NCBI RefSeq assembly: GCF_000143985.1
Contig: NC_014364.1
Coordinates: 3,038,001 to 3,102,000, forward strand
Direction of reading: 5' to 3'
Length of the DNA stretch: 64,000 bases
Origin: Sediminispirochaeta smaragdinae DSM 11293
Lineage (GTDB): Bacteria; Spirochaetota; Spirochaetia; DSM-16054; Sediminispirochaetaceae
The stretch's first letter is position 1, and each line of letters opens with the position of its first letter. Below, one piece after another: positions 1 through 7,805 of this stretch. The notes under the pieces are model-generated. The model searched no databases, had not been told where the DNA came from, and saw only the letters and a program-made list of their open reading frames with translations. A program made the translations under genes and the position numbers.

Positions 1-388
1 CCACTCCGGTGGTGGGGAGAGCAATCAGGATCATCCCCCGATCGGCGGCAAGACGGCATGAGGCTTTAAGTTTCGCCGCTTCTGCGGTGGTGGAATTCAG
101 AACGGCAGCCCCCCACTTCTCCTCGTAGACAGAGAGACCTGCCTCGATATGCTCAAGATCGGGACAGTCAAAGGCAAGGGGAACCGAACATGCGGCCTGA
201 ATAATCTTAGAGGCCCAAAGGAGATCGGCTACTTCATCGCCTCTTCCCGCAAGGTTGATACCGACGGCAGAGGCGCCAAACTCAACCTGCCTTCGGGCAA
301 GCGATATCAGTGCTGCCTCATCCCGCCGGTCGAAGATGTCCCCTATCCCCTCGATGCCGACATTGATATCCCCACCGATGACCAGCAT
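1..388 (-). CDS. Pterin-binding methyltransferase, AcsE/MtrH-like (3' end cut by window)
   Basis: Only the first 129 codons are in the window. The translation begins MLVIGGDINVGIEGIGDIF and follows the start of the methyltetrahydrofolate:corrinoid methyltransferase (MeTr/AcsE) family, which shares the dihydropteroate-synthase TIM barrel. Visible landmarks are an N-terminal INVG segment, a conserved Asp in AFDCPD (MeTr has LDSTN), the IEAGL segment and an Asn in VLNST that matches the MeTr pterin-contact Asn. Such enzymes move a methyl group between a reduced pterin and a corrinoid protein. The start lies 5 bases after the mch stop, so the two genes are very likely co-transcribed. Which pterin is used (tetrahydrofolate or a tetrahydromethanopterin type) cannot be read from this fragment. 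The family call is firm; the substrate is inference. Confidence 0.8.
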   Translation of the reverse strand, partial: MLVIGGDINVGIEGIGDIFDRRDEAALISLARRQVEFGASAVGINLAGRGDEVADLLWASKIIQAACSVPLAFDCPDLEHIEAGLSVYEEKWGAAVLNSTTAEAAKLKASCRLAADRGMILIALPTTGV

Positions 389-393
389 CTTCG

Positions 394-1362
394 TTATCCC
401 CGAAGTCCGAAAGATTCCCGCAGCATATCAACCCGAATTTCTCCGGCCGAAAACTGGTTTCCGCTCGCATAGTTGACGATTTCATATCTGGCTACCGTGT
501 GAATATCCTTATCGACAAGATAGAAATCACGATGACCTTCTTCAAAGATATCGGCAAAACGCTCTCCATAACGTCGAGATGCGTTAAAGGGAACCTTATC
601 TATTACCGCTTCAATCTCTTCATCCTTGCAATTCACCACGTATCGTACCGTAACACCATAGAGTAAGGCCGTATTGACCCTATCCATGGCGATACACTCA
701 TCGGCTATCGGCGGAGCAATGGGACAGGTCCCCATACCGCTGATAATCTTGGAAATATCAAAGCCTTTCCGTTCAAGCCGCCAAATAGAAGCCTCGACGG
801 TTCTCGAACACACCTGTATACAGCCGGCAAGGCTGCCGGTCCTTGCTGCAAGGATATAGACGTTTTCGAGAGAGACACCGCAAGCCGCTGCAACATCCTC
901 TGCTACTGCCTCGTCGGGAAGGCGCTGGGTTTGAGCAGCAAATACCGTTTCGTGGTGATTATCCTTGTAGGACCATGCCTGCGAAAAGATATCATTCCTG
1001 GCAATCGCCCTAGCAGGACCTGATCCGATGGGATTGATACCCGAAGGTGCATCGTTAGCAGGAAGTTTCCATCCCGAAAACTGAGATGAGAGGCATGCCT
1101 CCTGGGGGTGGTCGATATAGACGTCAATAGAGGGGAGATCAAGCCCATCTTCCCGAAAGCGTCCGTAAACGGCGTGCCCCATGGCGCCGATGGTCGCCTT
1201 GATGAAAAGCAATGCGGCGGAATACCCCCCAGGTGCATCGACTCCCATGTCGACAACAGTGGCTCCGTTGGAAAGGATATGACACCGGCAATTGAGCTCT
1301 TCGGCTTGGGGAAGGATCTCCTCCTTTACAACCCGTACCGCCCGTTGATTGATACTGAACAT
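394..1362 (-). CDS. mch: Methenyltetrahydromethanopterin cyclohydrolase homologue
   Basis: This 322-residue protein has the full length of Mch, which interconverts N5,N10-methenyl- and N5-formyl-tetrahydromethanopterin. It carries the family segments VDAPGGYSA near residue 42, GSGPARA at 113-119, LPDEAVAE near 148, GMGTCPIAPP at 209-218 and the C-terminal ESFGL. The match runs end to end, so I call it Mch with confidence at family level. Mch is known from methanogens, methylotrophic proteobacteria and planctomycetes; it is unexpected in a spirochaete-like genome. It sits 16 bases after the GntR-family gene and 5 bases before the methyltransferase gene, in one apparent operon. Whether this organism makes a methanopterin-type cofactor, or the enzyme has moved to another pterin, cannot be decided here. 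Confidence 0.9.
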   Translation of the reverse strand: MFSINQRAVRVVKEEILPQAEELNCRCHILSNGATVVDMGVDAPGGYSAALLFIKATIGAMGHAVYGRFREDGLDLPSIDVYIDHPQEACLSSQFSGWKLPANDAPSGINPIGSGPARAIARNDIFSQAWSYKDNHHETVFAAQTQRLPDEAVAEDVAAACGVSLENVYILAARTGSLAGCIQVCSRTVEASIWRLERKGFDISKIISGMGTCPIAPPIADECIAMDRVNTALLYGVTVRYVVNCKDEEIEAVIDKVPFNASRRYGERFADIFEEGHRDFYLVDKDIHTVARYEIVNYASGNQFSAGEIRVDMLRESFGLRG

Positions 1363-1378
1363 GCACTCCTCCTAACGC

Positions 1379-2134
1379 TTAACGAAGTGAAAAATCTTCC
1401 CATGTTTTTCTTAGCATGGAAAGCTTCATGGAAACAGGATGAAACCAGGTAAGCGAATAACAGATAACCTCATCATAGATATTGTAGAATTGCTCTTTCC
1501 ATTCGATGATCGGGGTACCCTCCGGGATCCCGAAGCAGGAAGAGAGGTCGGTATCACACGATGTAGGTTCAAACCAGATCAGGGTGTGCTCCACCTCTTG
1601 GCCGCAATATTTGCGCAAAAACGCATAGACATTTTCTTCTCCGACATCCGTGGGCCGACTTGTAAGAAGTTTCTCAGGAACAAAAACCAGACAGTGGATA
1701 GCAGCTTCGCCGTCGGCAAAAAAGGTGCAACGAGTGGAAACATAACGTCCTGCATCAGATAGAGGCAGGGAAAAGGCCTTCCTGAGTTTTTCTTCATCCG
1801 TATCATCGGTAAGTGATCGAGAAGAGATGCTGTAGCCGGGACGCTTACCGCCGAGGGCTATCAATGAACCGAAGTCTCTGGTCCGATCGATACGATATCC
1901 CTGCTCAAGGGCACTGAAATGGATGAAATTCCCCAGTCCGTGCCGTTTCGTGATCACTCCTTCTTTATGGAGAGCAGCAAGGAGTTCCCGCATGGTGGTC
2001 CTGCTGACGTCAAGGTTACGCGCAAGCTCTTCTTCAGAAGGAAGTTTATTACCCTGAATGGGAATCTTTCCCTGTGTAAGCTCGTCCATAAAGAGCTCTT
2101 TTGCTTCCAAAAGAAGCGACCGGCGCCTCGACAT
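1379..2134 (-). CDS. GntR-family transcriptional regulator, HutC/UTRA type
   Basis: The 251-residue protein has an N-terminal winged helix (residues about 4-70) with the GntR signature LPSEEELARNLDVSRTTMRE, followed by a UTRA-type ligand-binding domain ending in a region with ITWFHP-like strands (YSLTWFHPVSM). HutC/UTRA regulators bind small metabolites and usually repress the operon they lead. I chose the ATG at 2134, preceded by GAGG at a 6-base spacing; a GTG four codons upstream (2146) is possible. It is the first gene of the mch operon, so it probably controls it in response to a one-carbon substrate or intermediate. The ligand is unknown. Confidence 0.9.
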   Translation of the reverse strand: MSRRRSLLLEAKELFMDELTQGKIPIQGNKLPSEEELARNLDVSRTTMRELLAALHKEGVITKRHGLGNFIHFSALEQGYRIDRTRDFGSLIALGGKRPGYSISSRSLTDDTDEEKLRKAFSLPLSDAGRYVSTRCTFFADGEAAIHCLVFVPEKLLTSRPTDVGEENVYAFLRKYCGQEVEHTLIWFEPTSCDTDLSSCFGIPEGTPIIEWKEQFYNIYDEVICYSLTWFHPVSMKLSMLRKTWEDFSLR

Positions 2135-2164
2135 ATCACACCTCACTCTTCATACGTCTTACCA

Positions 2165-3369: not shown

Positions 3370-5685
3370 TTGTTTTCCCAAGCGTTTTTCTCTATGCTAT
3401 CCACAGTGAAAAATAGGTTATATGTGTTACTTATAGGTGATCCGGCCAAGGGATTAGTACAAAGAACCCTCAGCATGTGTCGTCGACTCGGCACCGATCC
3501 TCGTCTTACCTTCTCAAACATAAGCCAACTTCGTATCGCTTACCCCCAATTTTATTGTGAGCCCTCCTTCAGTGAGGAAGAACCGCCTATCATTCTTGCA
3601 GATATCGAGCTTCCCGGTCTTACCCAGATCATAGGAAGAGCGCTGCCGCCGGTCATTCTGTTCAGAGAGAAGCAACAATTCCCTGCAACGCCGCCGCCAG
3701 ACGCCTTTGCAATCATAGAATCGGACTTTTCACCGGAAGCCTTCTCCTCGATACTGCAGGCAGCAAGTCGTCACACAACGCTGCTTCAGAGTTTTATTCG
3801 GGAGCGGATGAACGGAAGAGAGATCATCAACAATCTGAATGATGTGGTATATACCATCGATCTGAAAGGGAATGTCGTCTATATCTCCTCCGCAGCAGAA
3901 CGCTACGGTTTCTTCCCGCGAAATATCATCGGAAAATCGGTATTTGACCTGATCGACAGAGAGGATCACGATTATCTGCGACAGCAAATGAATAAGCTGA
4001 TAAGCGAACGCCAGGCAACCTCTCTTCTCAGGGTAACCAATGCAGAGGGAAAAACCCGACAGGTCAGGACATCAAGCCGTATCGTTACCCAGCACGGAAT
4101 GCCGTTCTCCATTACCGGCCTTCTAACCGACCAAACAGATCAAAGTTTTCGGGAGCAGCAGATCCTGAAACTTACTCAAGCCGTAGAGCAGAGTGCCAAT
4201 GTCATCGTCATAACCGATCTCGAAGGCAATATGGAGTTCGTCAATAGGGCCTTTGAACGGTCTACTGGCTACGGCAGACAAGAGGCAATTGGCCAAAATC
4301 CGAGGATACTCAAAACAGACTACCTTTCCGAGGAGGTTTACAAGAATTTATGGGAGACAATAAGCTCGGGTAATGTTTGGGAAGGGAAGTTTCATAATAA
4401 ACGAAAAGACGGCTCCACCTACTGGGAAAAGGCCCTGATAAGCCCCATCAAGAACGACGCCGGAACCATCATCAATTTCGTTGCAGTCAAGGAAGATATA
4501 ACGAAAGAACTGGCTTATCAGCAGGAACTGGAACAGGCAAAAGAGGTAGCCGAAGAGGCAAGCAGATTGAAAAGTGAATTCTTGGCCAACATGAGCCATG
4601 AAATCAGAACCCCCCTTAATGTCATCCTTGGTTTTACCGATCTGCTTCTCGATGAGACGGAAGATGCCAAGAAACGGGACCATCTGCACCTTATCAAGGA
4701 CTCCGGAAAGAATCTACTCGAATTGATAAATGATATCCTTGATTTTTCCAAGATCGAAGCCAACAAACTCGATCTTGAGATTGATGTGTTTGACCCTAAG
4801 GCCCTGCTTCAAAATATCAAGGGGATGTTCTCCCTGGAAGCTAAGCGGAAAGGTCTTGATTTTACCGTTGAGCACGATGTTCCGCTACCCGAACTCCTCG
4901 GGGATCAATATCGAATACGCCAAATTCTCATGAATCTTTTAAGCAATGCCATGAAATTTACCGAAGTGGGTTCTGTATCCCTTCGGGCCCATTACGAAAA
5001 CACAGGGATCATGCGCTTCAGCGTCTCCGATACGGGAATAGGTATCCCGGAAGAATCCCGCAAACAGATTTTTCACCCCTTCGAACAGCTGGACGGCTCT
5101 GCCAAACGCAAATTCAGCGGTACAGGGCTTGGGCTATCAATTACGAGGAGATTGGTTCATCTTATGGGTGGAAATATCACCCTTGAGAGTAAAGCAGGAA
5201 GAGGATCGACCTTCACCATCGAACTGCCGCTGCCCACTACAACAAGGACATCTGCGATACACGGCCCCAGCCCTCGGCAAGCCTCCGTAAGTGGGGACAA
5301 GAGGGTACACTCATCCCCTTCATCTCCCAAAACGATTTTGGTAGCCGAAGACAACGGTTTGAACCAAGAGTTGATGAAACTATTAATCCGAAGCATGGGT
5401 CATCACTGTATCGTGGTCGGCAACGGTCTGGAGGCCATCACGCTTTTAGAAAAAGAAAAATTTGATCTGCTGCTTCTCGATATGCATATGCCGGTTATGG
5501 ACGGGCTGGAAACCATCGAGAACATACGAAAAAGTCCGGCACTCTCCGATCTGCCCGTTATTGCCCTAACAGCCAGTGCAATGAAGGGCGATGAAGAACG
5601 ATTTATCGAGGCAGGATGCAATGGCTATCTGTCCAAGCCCATCGACAGAAAACTACTGGCCGAGATGATAGAACGAATAGCTTAA
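3370..5685 (+). CDS. Hybrid sensor histidine kinase (pseudo-receiver, PAS, PAS, HisKA, HATPase, REC)
   Basis: A 771-residue soluble hybrid kinase. Residues 15-145 look like a degenerate receiver: strand LYVLLIGDP, an Asp at 78 in ILADIELPG, but the conserved Lys is missing. Two PAS domains follow (about 150-260 and 265-385, the second with a PAC-like end), then HisKA with H410 in NMSHEIRTPLN, HATPase with DTGIGIPE and GTGLGLSI, and a C-terminal receiver with D704 in LLLDMHMPVMDG. No transmembrane segment is visible, so the signal is cytoplasmic. The start is uncertain: neither the ATG at 3370 nor the one at 3394 has a clear ribosome site. It overlaps the convergent molybdoenzyme gene by 4 bases. 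Confidence 0.93.
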   Translation: MFSQAFFSMLSTVKNRLYVLLIGDPAKGLVQRTLSMCRRLGTDPRLTFSNISQLRIAYPQFYCEPSFSEEEPPIILADIELPGLTQIIGRALPPVILFREKQQFPATPPPDAFAIIESDFSPEAFSSILQAASRHTTLLQSFIRERMNGREIINNLNDVVYTIDLKGNVVYISSAAERYGFFPRNIIGKSVFDLIDREDHDYLRQQMNKLISERQATSLLRVTNAEGKTRQVRTSSRIVTQHGMPFSITGLLTDQTDQSFREQQILKLTQAVEQSANVIVITDLEGNMEFVNRAFERSTGYGRQEAIGQNPRILKTDYLSEEVYKNLWETISSGNVWEGKFHNKRKDGSTYWEKALISPIKNDAGTIINFVAVKEDITKELAYQQELEQAKEVAEEASRLKSEFLANMSHEIRTPLNVILGFTDLLLDETEDAKKRDHLHLIKDSGKNLLELINDILDFSKIEANKLDLEIDVFDPKALLQNIKGMFSLEAKRKGLDFTVEHDVPLPELLGDQYRIRQILMNLLSNAMKFTEVGSVSLRAHYENTGIMRFSVSDTGIGIPEESRKQIFHPFEQLDGSAKRKFSGTGLGLSITRRLVHLMGGNITLESKAGRGSTFTIELPLPTTTRTSAIHGPSPRQASVSGDKRVHSSPSSPKTILVAEDNGLNQELMKLLIRSMGHHCIVVGNGLEAITLLEKEKFDLLLLDMHMPVMDGLETIENIRKSPALSDLPVIALTASAMKGDEERFIEAGCNGYLSKPIDRKLLAEMIERIA

Positions 5686-7805
5686 TCAGGGAGCCAGGGT
5701 GAAACCTCGACAAAGACGGAATGGGTTCTCGAGCCTCGGCTCGGTAGGGTCGGCTCGGTTGAGGTCAAAACGTTGACATTTCCCGTCGGAAGCCCTGATT
5801 CAGCGTCAATCCGCGGCCAGGTACCCTGATTGGCCGAAACTACCCCCCGGGCAATATCATTGCTGATCGCCACCTGCATCACCATGGAGCCGACCTCATT
5901 TTTCACCACAACCTTATCCCCTTCTCCTATCCCACGCAAAAGCGCATCCTCCGGGTGCATCATCATCTTATCAAAACAGAGCCGACGGAAAACGGAGAGA
6001 TTATCAAATTGACTGTGAGTGCGATACCTCTCATGGGGGGTAATCAACATAAGAGGATAACCGTCAGGGGGCTCGGGAATGTGCGCGACGGGCCAAAGCG
6101 GTCCTCCTGCGGCCTCATAGGCCTGAGAAACAATCTCGATCTTTCCGGAAGGAGTCGACAATTTCTTGCCCTCGGGATCGGCAAAGAAACCAGCAAGAGT
6201 ACGACGCCGGTGCTCCTTCCCGAACCAGATACCGCAGTCACGAAACGCCTTTTGATCATCTACAACGCTTTCATCAAGGAACTTCTCGATCCATTGAGCC
6301 TCGCTCAAGCCGGCGGTGAATTCTTCGGCAAAGCCCAAACGTTCGGCCAAAAGTGAAAAAATCTCATAATCGTTTTTTGCCTCACCTTGGGGAGGAACCG
6401 CCTGAGCCGAATAAAACAGATAATTTCCCGGAACAAAACAGATATCTTCCCGCTCCAGAAACGTGGTTGCCGGCAAGACGATATCCGCCCAGGAGGCAGT
6501 TTCCGTGAGAAAATAGTCATGAACCACGGAAAACTCCGCCTTATCAAAGGCCCTACGACTTTTGTTAAGGTCACTTCCCTGGCCCAGATAGTTTCCCCCC
6601 ACACAGTAGATAAAAGAAGGAGAAGAGGGAAAGCCTCCGGCTCTTCCCTCAAGTATCGCATCGGGCCAAAGATAGACAGGAACGGAAACAACATCCCCCG
6701 TTTGAGGAACCGAGATCTTCCCACATCGCGGCTTTGGAAGCATATTCCATTGGCCACACCCAAGATTCCCCCCCGGAAGCCAGGCATTTCCGGAAACAAG
6801 CTGAAGTATCCCGGCAAGACGGTCCGCCTCCTCGCCGCCAAGAGTCCTTTGCACCGAGAGTCCAGATAGCAAGGCAAGAGGCTTAGTATCGGCAAAAAAA
6901 TCGGCAAGAAAGCGGATATCATCGGTGGAAAGCCCGCACAAGGGGGCCGCCCACTCAATATCTCTGACAACACCGTCGACTGCTCCGGAAAGATGCGCCT
7001 CCAAACGATCGAAACCGACAGTATAACGCTCCAGCAGACTCCGGTCGAAACGATCGCGGGCATCTCCGCATGCCAGATGATGGATTAATGCCGACAAAAG
7101 CACGCCATCGCTTCCCGGTCTTATTGGAAACCATTTTGCACCAAGCTTCCTCACCGATGCCGTCCGCCTCGGATCGATGACAATAAAGGGAATACCTCGC
7201 TTTGAAAGCGCAAGAAGAAACTGCTGAGTTTCAGAGCCGAATCGGGTATAGAAAGGATTAAAGCCCCAGAGCACAATGGCCCTGGCATCCTCCAACGATT
7301 CAACGTCAATTCCCACACGATCGGTTCCATACATAAAGGGTTTGACAAAATCACTAGCCTCGCTACTGTAATTGCCTGCAGTATCGGTGTAGCCTCCGAA
7401 AAGAGATAAAAAGCGGCTGGTAAGGCGCGCAGTATGGTGCAGAGCCCCCCTGCAAGAGCCCGAACCTCCTAGACGGATGATCGAATGCACGCCTTTTTTT
7501 GCCTTAACCTCTGTGAGTTTCTCCGCAATTAGGTCGAGAGCCTCGGACCAGGAAGCTTTACGAAAGGACGCACTCCCCCGCTTACCACAACGGACGAGAG
7601 GATGGAGGATACGATCGGGGTGATATAAGACGTCGGCCATACGATACCCCTTCAGACACCCCTGCATATAGTGAGGCCGATCCGGATTGTCCCTGATTCT
7701 TACCACCCTCCCGTTGGAGATTTCCGCTACGAGTGGGCATCCCCCACCACAATCTTTATTGCATGAGACTGGAATTGTCTGAAAAGAATCCGAAGGAAAG
7801 GTCAT
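5682..7805 (-). CDS. Molybdopterin oxidoreductase, DMSO reductase superfamily
   Basis: A 707-residue catalytic subunit. An N-terminal [4Fe-4S] motif is present as C15-x3-C19-x3-C23-x26-C50, followed by the molybdopterin domain and a C-terminal molydopterin-dinucleotide-binding domain (from about residue 585, LITPHERYRTHSQFDN). The segment AGNYSSEAS at 143-151 falls where DmsA-type enzymes have the Mo-ligating Ser, so Ser147 or Ser148 is the likely ligand; this is inference. There is no Tat signal peptide and no FeS or membrane-anchor subunit gene beside it, so it may be a soluble cytoplasmic enzyme. The substrate (an S- or N-oxide, or something else) cannot be told. Confidence 0.9.
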   Translation of the reverse strand: MTFPSDSFQTIPVSCNKDCGGGCPLVAEISNGRVVRIRDNPDRPHYMQGCLKGYRMADVLYHPDRILHPLVRCGKRGSASFRKASWSEALDLIAEKLTEVKAKKGVHSIIRLGGSGSCRGALHHTARLTSRFLSLFGGYTDTAGNYSSEASDFVKPFMYGTDRVGIDVESLEDARAIVLWGFNPFYTRFGSETQQFLLALSKRGIPFIVIDPRRTASVRKLGAKWFPIRPGSDGVLLSALIHHLACGDARDRFDRSLLERYTVGFDRLEAHLSGAVDGVVRDIEWAAPLCGLSTDDIRFLADFFADTKPLALLSGLSVQRTLGGEEADRLAGILQLVSGNAWLPGGNLGCGQWNMLPKPRCGKISVPQTGDVVSVPVYLWPDAILEGRAGGFPSSPSFIYCVGGNYLGQGSDLNKSRRAFDKAEFSVVHDYFLTETASWADIVLPATTFLEREDICFVPGNYLFYSAQAVPPQGEAKNDYEIFSLLAERLGFAEEFTAGLSEAQWIEKFLDESVVDDQKAFRDCGIWFGKEHRRRTLAGFFADPEGKKLSTPSGKIEIVSQAYEAAGGPLWPVAHIPEPPDGYPLMLITPHERYRTHSQFDNLSVFRRLCFDKMMMHPEDALLRGIGEGDKVVVKNEVGSMVMQVAISNDIARGVVSANQGTWPRIDAESGLPTGNVNVLTSTEPTLPSRGSRTHSVFVEVSPWLPD

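Follow-up and report, generated by a model that had tools for sequence, protein, structure and literature searches.

A divergent Mch-like enzyme at the edge of a conserved catabolic operon in Sediminispirochaeta smaragdinae, possibly for uptake and breakdown of a reduced pterin

Results

The Mch-like gene belongs to a 16-gene operon

The first three genes of the window, i.e. of the whole stretch of 64,000 nucleotides that was analysed (bases 3038001-3102000 of the closed S. smaragdinae genome G000, a single contig of 4,653,970 bp), form one end of a catabolic operon that is conserved and mobile and is built around a divergent subfamily of homologues of methenyl-tetrahydromethanopterin cyclohydrolase (Mch). 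The S. smaragdinae protein is distinct from the enzyme of methylotrophs and methanogens and is a member of a separate bacterial superclade. Judging from the encoded enzyme families, we tentatively propose, at less than even confidence, that the operon would serve the ligand-controlled import and breakdown of a small vitamin-like compound. The likeliest candidate is a reduced pterin of the folate type, whose methenyl bridge would be opened by the Mch-like enzyme.

All three genes lie on the minus strand. The operon is led by GntR1 (1379..2146, 255 aa; PF00392 and PF07702), a GntR-family regulator with a UTRA ligand domain, as the first-pass annotation had stated; an in-frame ATG at 2134 matches the gene end given there. 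Next come the Mch-like cyclohydrolase (394..1362, 322 aa; PF02289/TIGR03120), which falls into clade A of the superclade, and the N-terminal part of an AcsE/MtrH-like pterin-binding methyltransferase (1..388; PF00809, 34.2 bits). The latter gene starts at 388, 5 bases past the Mch stop at 394 as previously noted, and continues beyond the window to genome position 3037573, encoding 271 aa in the full genome. The expectation that the gene set runs past the window edge was likewise correct, as 13 more genes follow downstream to give 16 closely packed genes (genome positions 3025715-3040146) with intergenic gaps of -20 to 69 bp. After GntR1, Mch and the MtrH-like gene, their order is a second GntR gene (GntR2), Amidohydro_2 a (AH2a), a DAO flavoenzyme, EcfT, two ECF ATPases, the S component (EcfS), Amidohydro_2 b (AH2b), a TRZ/ATZ-type deaminase, an M20 amidohydrolase, a small 2Fe-2S protein, a SoxA-like FAD protein with a ferredoxin domain (HcnB), and a BFD-like protein. 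The names given to the two ECF ATPases and to both small Fe-S proteins come from reading the sequences.

Compared with the sister genome G376, all 16 genes show dN/dS values of 0.05-0.23 (0.10 for GntR1, 0.077 for Mch), indicating purifying selection. A promoter-like site with an 11/12 match precedes GntR2, although chance alone predicts such sites in the region, and no operator palindrome was found upstream of GntR1. The DNA had been judged spirochaete-like, and it indeed comes from a spirochaete: S. smaragdinae SEBR 4228T (formerly Spirochaeta) is a halophilic, strictly anaerobic fermenter and thiosulfate reducer (PMC3035371). A 707-aa molybdopterin oxidoreductase encoded near the operon (window 5682-7805) is possibly linked to the thiosulfate/sulfur reduction of the species.

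The Mch-like protein is part of a bacterial superclade

The protein is a full-length Mch homologue, as had been claimed, scoring 359.8 bits against PF02289 (cut-off 25) and 277.8 bits against TIGR03120 (cut-off 228.8; residues 3-319), with 34-40% identity to the solved enzymes. The residues R183 and E186 of the A. fulgidus enzyme, which we take to be the catalytic Arg/Glu pair, are kept as R187 and E190 and are invariant in 102/102 aligned Mch sequences. Likewise, the pocket residues that are invariant in canonical Mch (N5, D37, Q93, R113, R183, E186, N226) are retained in nearly all groups. Two positions behave differently: E140 and F280 (A. fulgidus numbering) occur in 74/74 canonical sequences (71 plus 3 from methylotrophs) and in 0/31 superclade members, all of which carry Gln and His instead (E140Q, F280H). 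Residues 140 and 280 thus divide canonical from superclade Mch cleanly. In addition, T225, nearly invariant in canonical Mch, is Val in the S. smaragdinae protein. Lys94 of the active-site segment was dropped as a diagnostic residue since it varies among canonical enzymes as well. The E140Q and F280H exchanges suggest another substrate, and the simplest reading of the superclade would be the same chemistry on an altered substrate.

In the phylogenetic tree, the 31 bacterial Mch-like sequences of the superclade, from four phyla, form one side of a branch with 100/99 support. On the other side are the archaeal, planctomycete, anammox and proteobacterial methylotroph enzymes. The methylotroph mch genes are clustered with RFAP synthase and MtdB in 3/3 cases and with Fae in 2/3, and neither Fae nor MtdB was recognised among the operon genes. 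A grouping of the S. smaragdinae Mch with methylotroph enzymes, named earlier as a refuting case, was therefore not found, and a methylotroph-type transfer is rejected by both tree and gene context. Contamination of the assembly, the other such case, is rejected too, because the genome is closed and all 16 genes recur in G376.

Related clusters occur in several phyla

PF02289 was detected in 2/393 sampled spirochaete genomes, both Sediminispirochaeta. A scan of genome contigs revealed close Mch relatives (59-67% identity) in four MAGs, one each from Spirochaetes and Clostridia and two from Acidimicrobiia. The Spirochaetes MAG (L009) has the order GntR2-DAO-EcfTAAS-AH2b-TRZ-M20-Mch-HcnA-HcnB-BFD, in which Mch is relocated to a site between M20 and the 2Fe-2S subunit, and MtrH and AH2a are missing. 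In a small Bacillota class, 8 of 10 species have Mch homologues, with up to 6 matches each (fragments counted). Two genomes of this class (G758, G757) harbour the contiguous run GntR1-MtrH-Mch-DAO-AH2a-AH2b-TRZ-EcfTAA-M20-EcfS, and a further one (G393) has the same genes scattered over several contigs. The M20 gene of the Bacillota clusters occupies the same slot but is of another subfamily (HmrA/dipeptidase-like), i.e. the same step appears to be done by a different enzyme. In L144, L146 and L149 a GntR gene leads the related cluster and an MtrH-like gene adjoins the clade A Mch, and the ECF transporter gene set is conserved in L009, L144, L146 and L157. Neighbours common to two phyla in such number cannot be chance. 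Two other spirochaetes (L105:8434-12191 and L106:8558-12373) retain only the ECF transporter, with fused ATPases, and AH2b, which suggests that AH2b acts directly on the imported compound. At yet another locus (L006) a clade A Mch has a GntR gene and an ABC transporter of the BMP type as neighbours.

A second cluster type, in which superclade Mch is associated with 2-oxoacid dehydrogenase E1/E2 and an SDR, was found in the Bacillota class, Chloroflexota and Acidimicrobiia. Its order SDR-Mch-E1 alpha-E1 beta-E2-second Mch is seen at L145:9469-15582, L147:9810-16137, L148:11969-17807, L150:9774-15242, L151:9647-15083 and L152:9910-15346; two divergent Mch paralogues flank E1/E2 in the Bacillota clusters of this type. 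A lipoate-ligase-like gene and an ABC transporter lie nearby in L150-L152. Most Chloroflexota and Acidimicrobiia loci also encode a protein with Mer as best model, below cut-off; this Mer-like LLM protein follows the Mch-like gene at L018:7501-9439, L021:4300-6392, L154:2863-5735 and L155:579-2491. Several carriers are MAGs from anoxic sediment, seep or vent, judged by their record titles.

Host genomes lack a recognisable H4MPT pathway

The first-pass annotation had proposed an undescribed one-carbon or methyl-transfer path under ligand control. An undescribed, probably ligand-controlled route with an Mch homologue is supported; a tetrahydromethanopterin (H4MPT) one-carbon path of the host is not. 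Beta-RFAP synthase (TIGR00144), which is required for H4MPT synthesis, had no match in 13 superclade genomes (G000, G376 and 11 others), with archaeal controls positive in four genomes; several of the 13 are MAGs, where single absences are weak, and G000 is closed. The genomes of L018 and L021, which pair the Mch-like and Mer-like proteins, were among those in which RFAP synthase was not detected. The suggested search for fhc genes ended similarly, as the formyltransferase FTR/FhcD (PF01913) was not found in G000, although the genomes behind L010 and L018 do encode it. With RFAP synthase and FTR not found, a host H4MPT pathway is unsupported, and S. smaragdinae does not appear to possess one.

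FolD, which normally carries methenyl-tetrahydrofolate (methenyl-H4F) cyclohydrolase activity, is present in 10/10 superclade genomes tested, so that Mch should be dispensable for ordinary hydrolysis of methenyl-H4F. FolK (PF01288) had no match in G000, G376 and 5/8 other carriers; folate auxotrophy, and with it a need for external folate, is probable for both S. smaragdinae and its sister. Such a need fits a folate-related importer, yet it speaks against wasteful destruction.

The other operon proteins resemble a system for importing and degrading one particular compound

Among the relatives of the DAO protein, archaeal proline dehydrogenase beta and the sarcosine/glycine oxidases are the nearest, and HcnB matches SoxA and the same archaeal proline dehydrogenase complex. 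These relatives suggest secondary-amine oxidation. The best solved relatives of the deaminase are MTA/SAH deaminases (4F0R, TM0936), its top scores being to nucleoside deaminases. Its metal-ligand motifs are kept, but the PxE glutamate (PIE in TM0936), presumably ribose-binding, is replaced by FPFA in 6/6 operon homologues, which speaks against a nucleoside substrate. The M20 enzyme belongs to the acyl-amino-acid amidohydrolase subfamily; its solved relatives include, at greater distance, the p-aminobenzoyl-glutamate utilisation protein. The ECF transporter is complete, with T, two ATPases and S in one cluster; transporters of this type carry mostly vitamins, as far as known. Its S component is distantly PF07155-like (34.6 bits) and has no solved relative by sequence. 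Taken together, the ECF importer, deaminase, amidase, hydrolases and amine dehydrogenase look more like machinery to take up and degrade one particular compound than like one-carbon energy metabolism.

The methyltransferase scores 177 bits against PRK07535, below the cut-off of 259. The Asp and Asn of its pterin site were correctly reported as kept: AcsE D75, N96, D160 and N199 correspond to D74, N98, D162 and N200 (4/4). Inspection of the genes beyond position 1, proposed as a check, showed no corrinoid protein or ATP-grasp gene in the operon. In G376, B12-binding_2 matches a single frame; with a length of 1175 aa and a match to the methyltransferase query as well, this frame is MetH-like. 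G000 has a MetH-like frame and one distant MtaC-like corrinoid protein. The latter goes with the only separate corrinoid set of G000, ~96 kb from the operon (L168:3266-10103; G000:C1 about 2939265-2946102), whose genes look by eye like RACo-type activator, PocR-like regulator, corrinoid protein, MtaA/UroD-type methyltransferase and CobW. By PF02607, G376 does not have the corrinoid protein of this set. The idea that the AcsE-like protein has its own corrinoid system is rejected, as none is in the operon and the G000 set is distant and missing in the sister genome. The Bacillota genome G393 is rich in corrinoid methyltransferases, with 18 B12-binding_2 matches and several AcsE-like matches.

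Discussion

In the proposed breakdown of a folate-type pterin, the ECF transporter would import the compound, and the two GntR proteins may sense it or a product. The Mch-like enzyme would convert the N5,N10-methenyl (imidazolinium) bridge into a formyl group via the conserved Arg/Glu pair, and the AcsE-like protein could strip an N5-methyl group. The M20 amidase may cleave the acyl-glutamate-type bond, the DAO/SoxA-like/2Fe-2S dehydrogenase would oxidise the secondary-amine bridge, the TRZ/ATZ-type deaminase would take off the ring amino group, and the two Amidohydro_2 enzymes might open or decarboxylate the leftover ring parts. This dismantling or remodelling is favoured because a plausible enzyme can be named for every part of a reduced folate: the one-carbon group, the glutamate amide, the C9-N10 amine bridge, the amino group on the ring and the ring itself. 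Moreover, Mch and AcsE represent known families of reduced-pterin binders with key residues kept, which supports a pterin. Several observations count against folate: none of the family models assigns any operon enzyme a folate substrate, the deaminase scores best with nucleoside deaminases, EcfS has no solved relative, and L009 lacks the methyltransferase. The destruction of an essential vitamin would also be odd for S. smaragdinae, which has no detected FolK, so that the operon may instead serve salvage or handle an unrelated pterin.

Among the other explanations, one-carbon dissimilation is somewhat unlikely. An N-methylated amine or amino-acid derivative would be imported, and the flavoenzyme and the AcsE-like protein would hand its one-carbon groups to host tetrahydrofolate, with Mch as a dedicated methenyl-H4F cyclohydrolase. 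The kinship of DAO and HcnB to proline dehydrogenase, sarcosine oxidase and SoxA, the AcsE-type methyltransferase in the operon, and the Mer-like neighbour of clade B mch genes agree with this scheme. The presence of FolD in every genome tested argues against it, as do the lack of a corrinoid protein in the operon and the MetH-like nature of the only such match in G376. It is also unlikely that the substrate is a non-pterin cyclic amidinium, e.g. an N-alkylated purine or imidazolium, which would be taken up by ECF or BMP systems, hydrolysed by Mch and finished off by deaminase, amidase and hydrolases. The BMP-type transporter beside the L006 gene would suit such a compound (these transporters carry nucleosides or B vitamins, as far as known), as would the E140Q and F280H changes and the purine-rich deaminase superfamily. 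Against this, the other canonical pocket residues are retained in nearly all groups, the recurrent AcsE-like neighbour is from a pterin-binding family, and the deaminase lacks the PxE glutamate of TM0936.

We regard it as improbable that archaeal H4MPT is scavenged from dead methanogens, with a captured Mch and methyltransferase stripping its one-carbon groups. The ancestry of Mch, its AcsE- or Mer-like partners and the anoxic origin of several carriers are in line with this idea, but both positions invariant in the 74 H4MPT-type enzymes are altered in every superclade member, and H4MPT is not known to contain an acyl-glutamate amide that the M20 enzyme could cut. By far the least probable is a canonical H4MPT pathway gained with a methylotroph module, or else a contaminated assembly. 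A score above the TIGR03120 equivalog cut-off would favour the canonical pathway; the undetected RFAP synthase and FTR and the separate clade of methylotroph Mch, embedded in fae/MtdB/RFAP clusters, contradict it, and the closed genome and the operon of G376 contradict contamination.

The presence of Mch is routinely taken to indicate H4MPT-linked C1 metabolism, i.e. methanogenesis or methylotrophy. Since superclade proteins pass the TIGR03120 equivalog cut-off (two members tested) in hosts where H4MPT synthesis is not detectable, annotations of this kind lead metagenome reconstructions astray. The literature search gave, among the matches listed, nothing relevant on Mch outside H4MPT organisms or on bacterial folate-breakdown operons. 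A plasmid search for annotated operon versions gave, among the matches listed, canonical methylotroph or haloarchaeal Mch and a stand-alone Amidohydro_2 (Chlorohelix) only. As far as this literature goes, we found no description of the operon or of the divergent Mch-like subfamily. It is conceivable, although we hold this more loosely than the folate-type reading itself, that the operon represents the first dedicated bacterial pathway for importing and dismantling reduced one-carbon pterins, either tetrahydrofolate or the tetrahydromethanopterin of archaea. An enzyme family of the H4MPT pathway would then have passed from C1 energy metabolism into the breakdown of cofactors, and a large, unrecognised Mch-like superclade would have related jobs elsewhere. 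S. smaragdinae offers a cultivable organism for finding the operon substrate.

Compared with archaeal and methylotroph Mch (PF02289, TIGR03120; 1QLM, 4GVQ), the S. smaragdinae protein shares the catalytic pair, most pocket residues and full-length homology, but differs in its bacterial superclade, the E140Q/F280H exchanges, the catabolic operon and hosts without detected RFAP synthase. The methyltransferase is of the same fold family as the AcsE/MtrH 5-methyl-H4F:corrinoid methyltransferases (PRK07535; 2E7F) and keeps the pterin-contact residues, whereas it stays below the model cut-off and has no corrinoid protein in its operon. The T, two-ATPase and S set equals that of energy-coupling-factor vitamin transporters, with a distant S component. 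With the MTA/SAH deaminase group of TRZ/ATZ amidohydrolases the deaminase has the metal motifs in common, FPFA taking the place of PxE. Finally, HcnABC and the dye-linked proline dehydrogenase (1Y56) have the same DAO subunit, SoxA-like FAD subunit and small 2Fe-2S subunits, whereas in the operon the SoxA-like subunit bears a ferredoxin domain and the DAO gene is separate from the rest.
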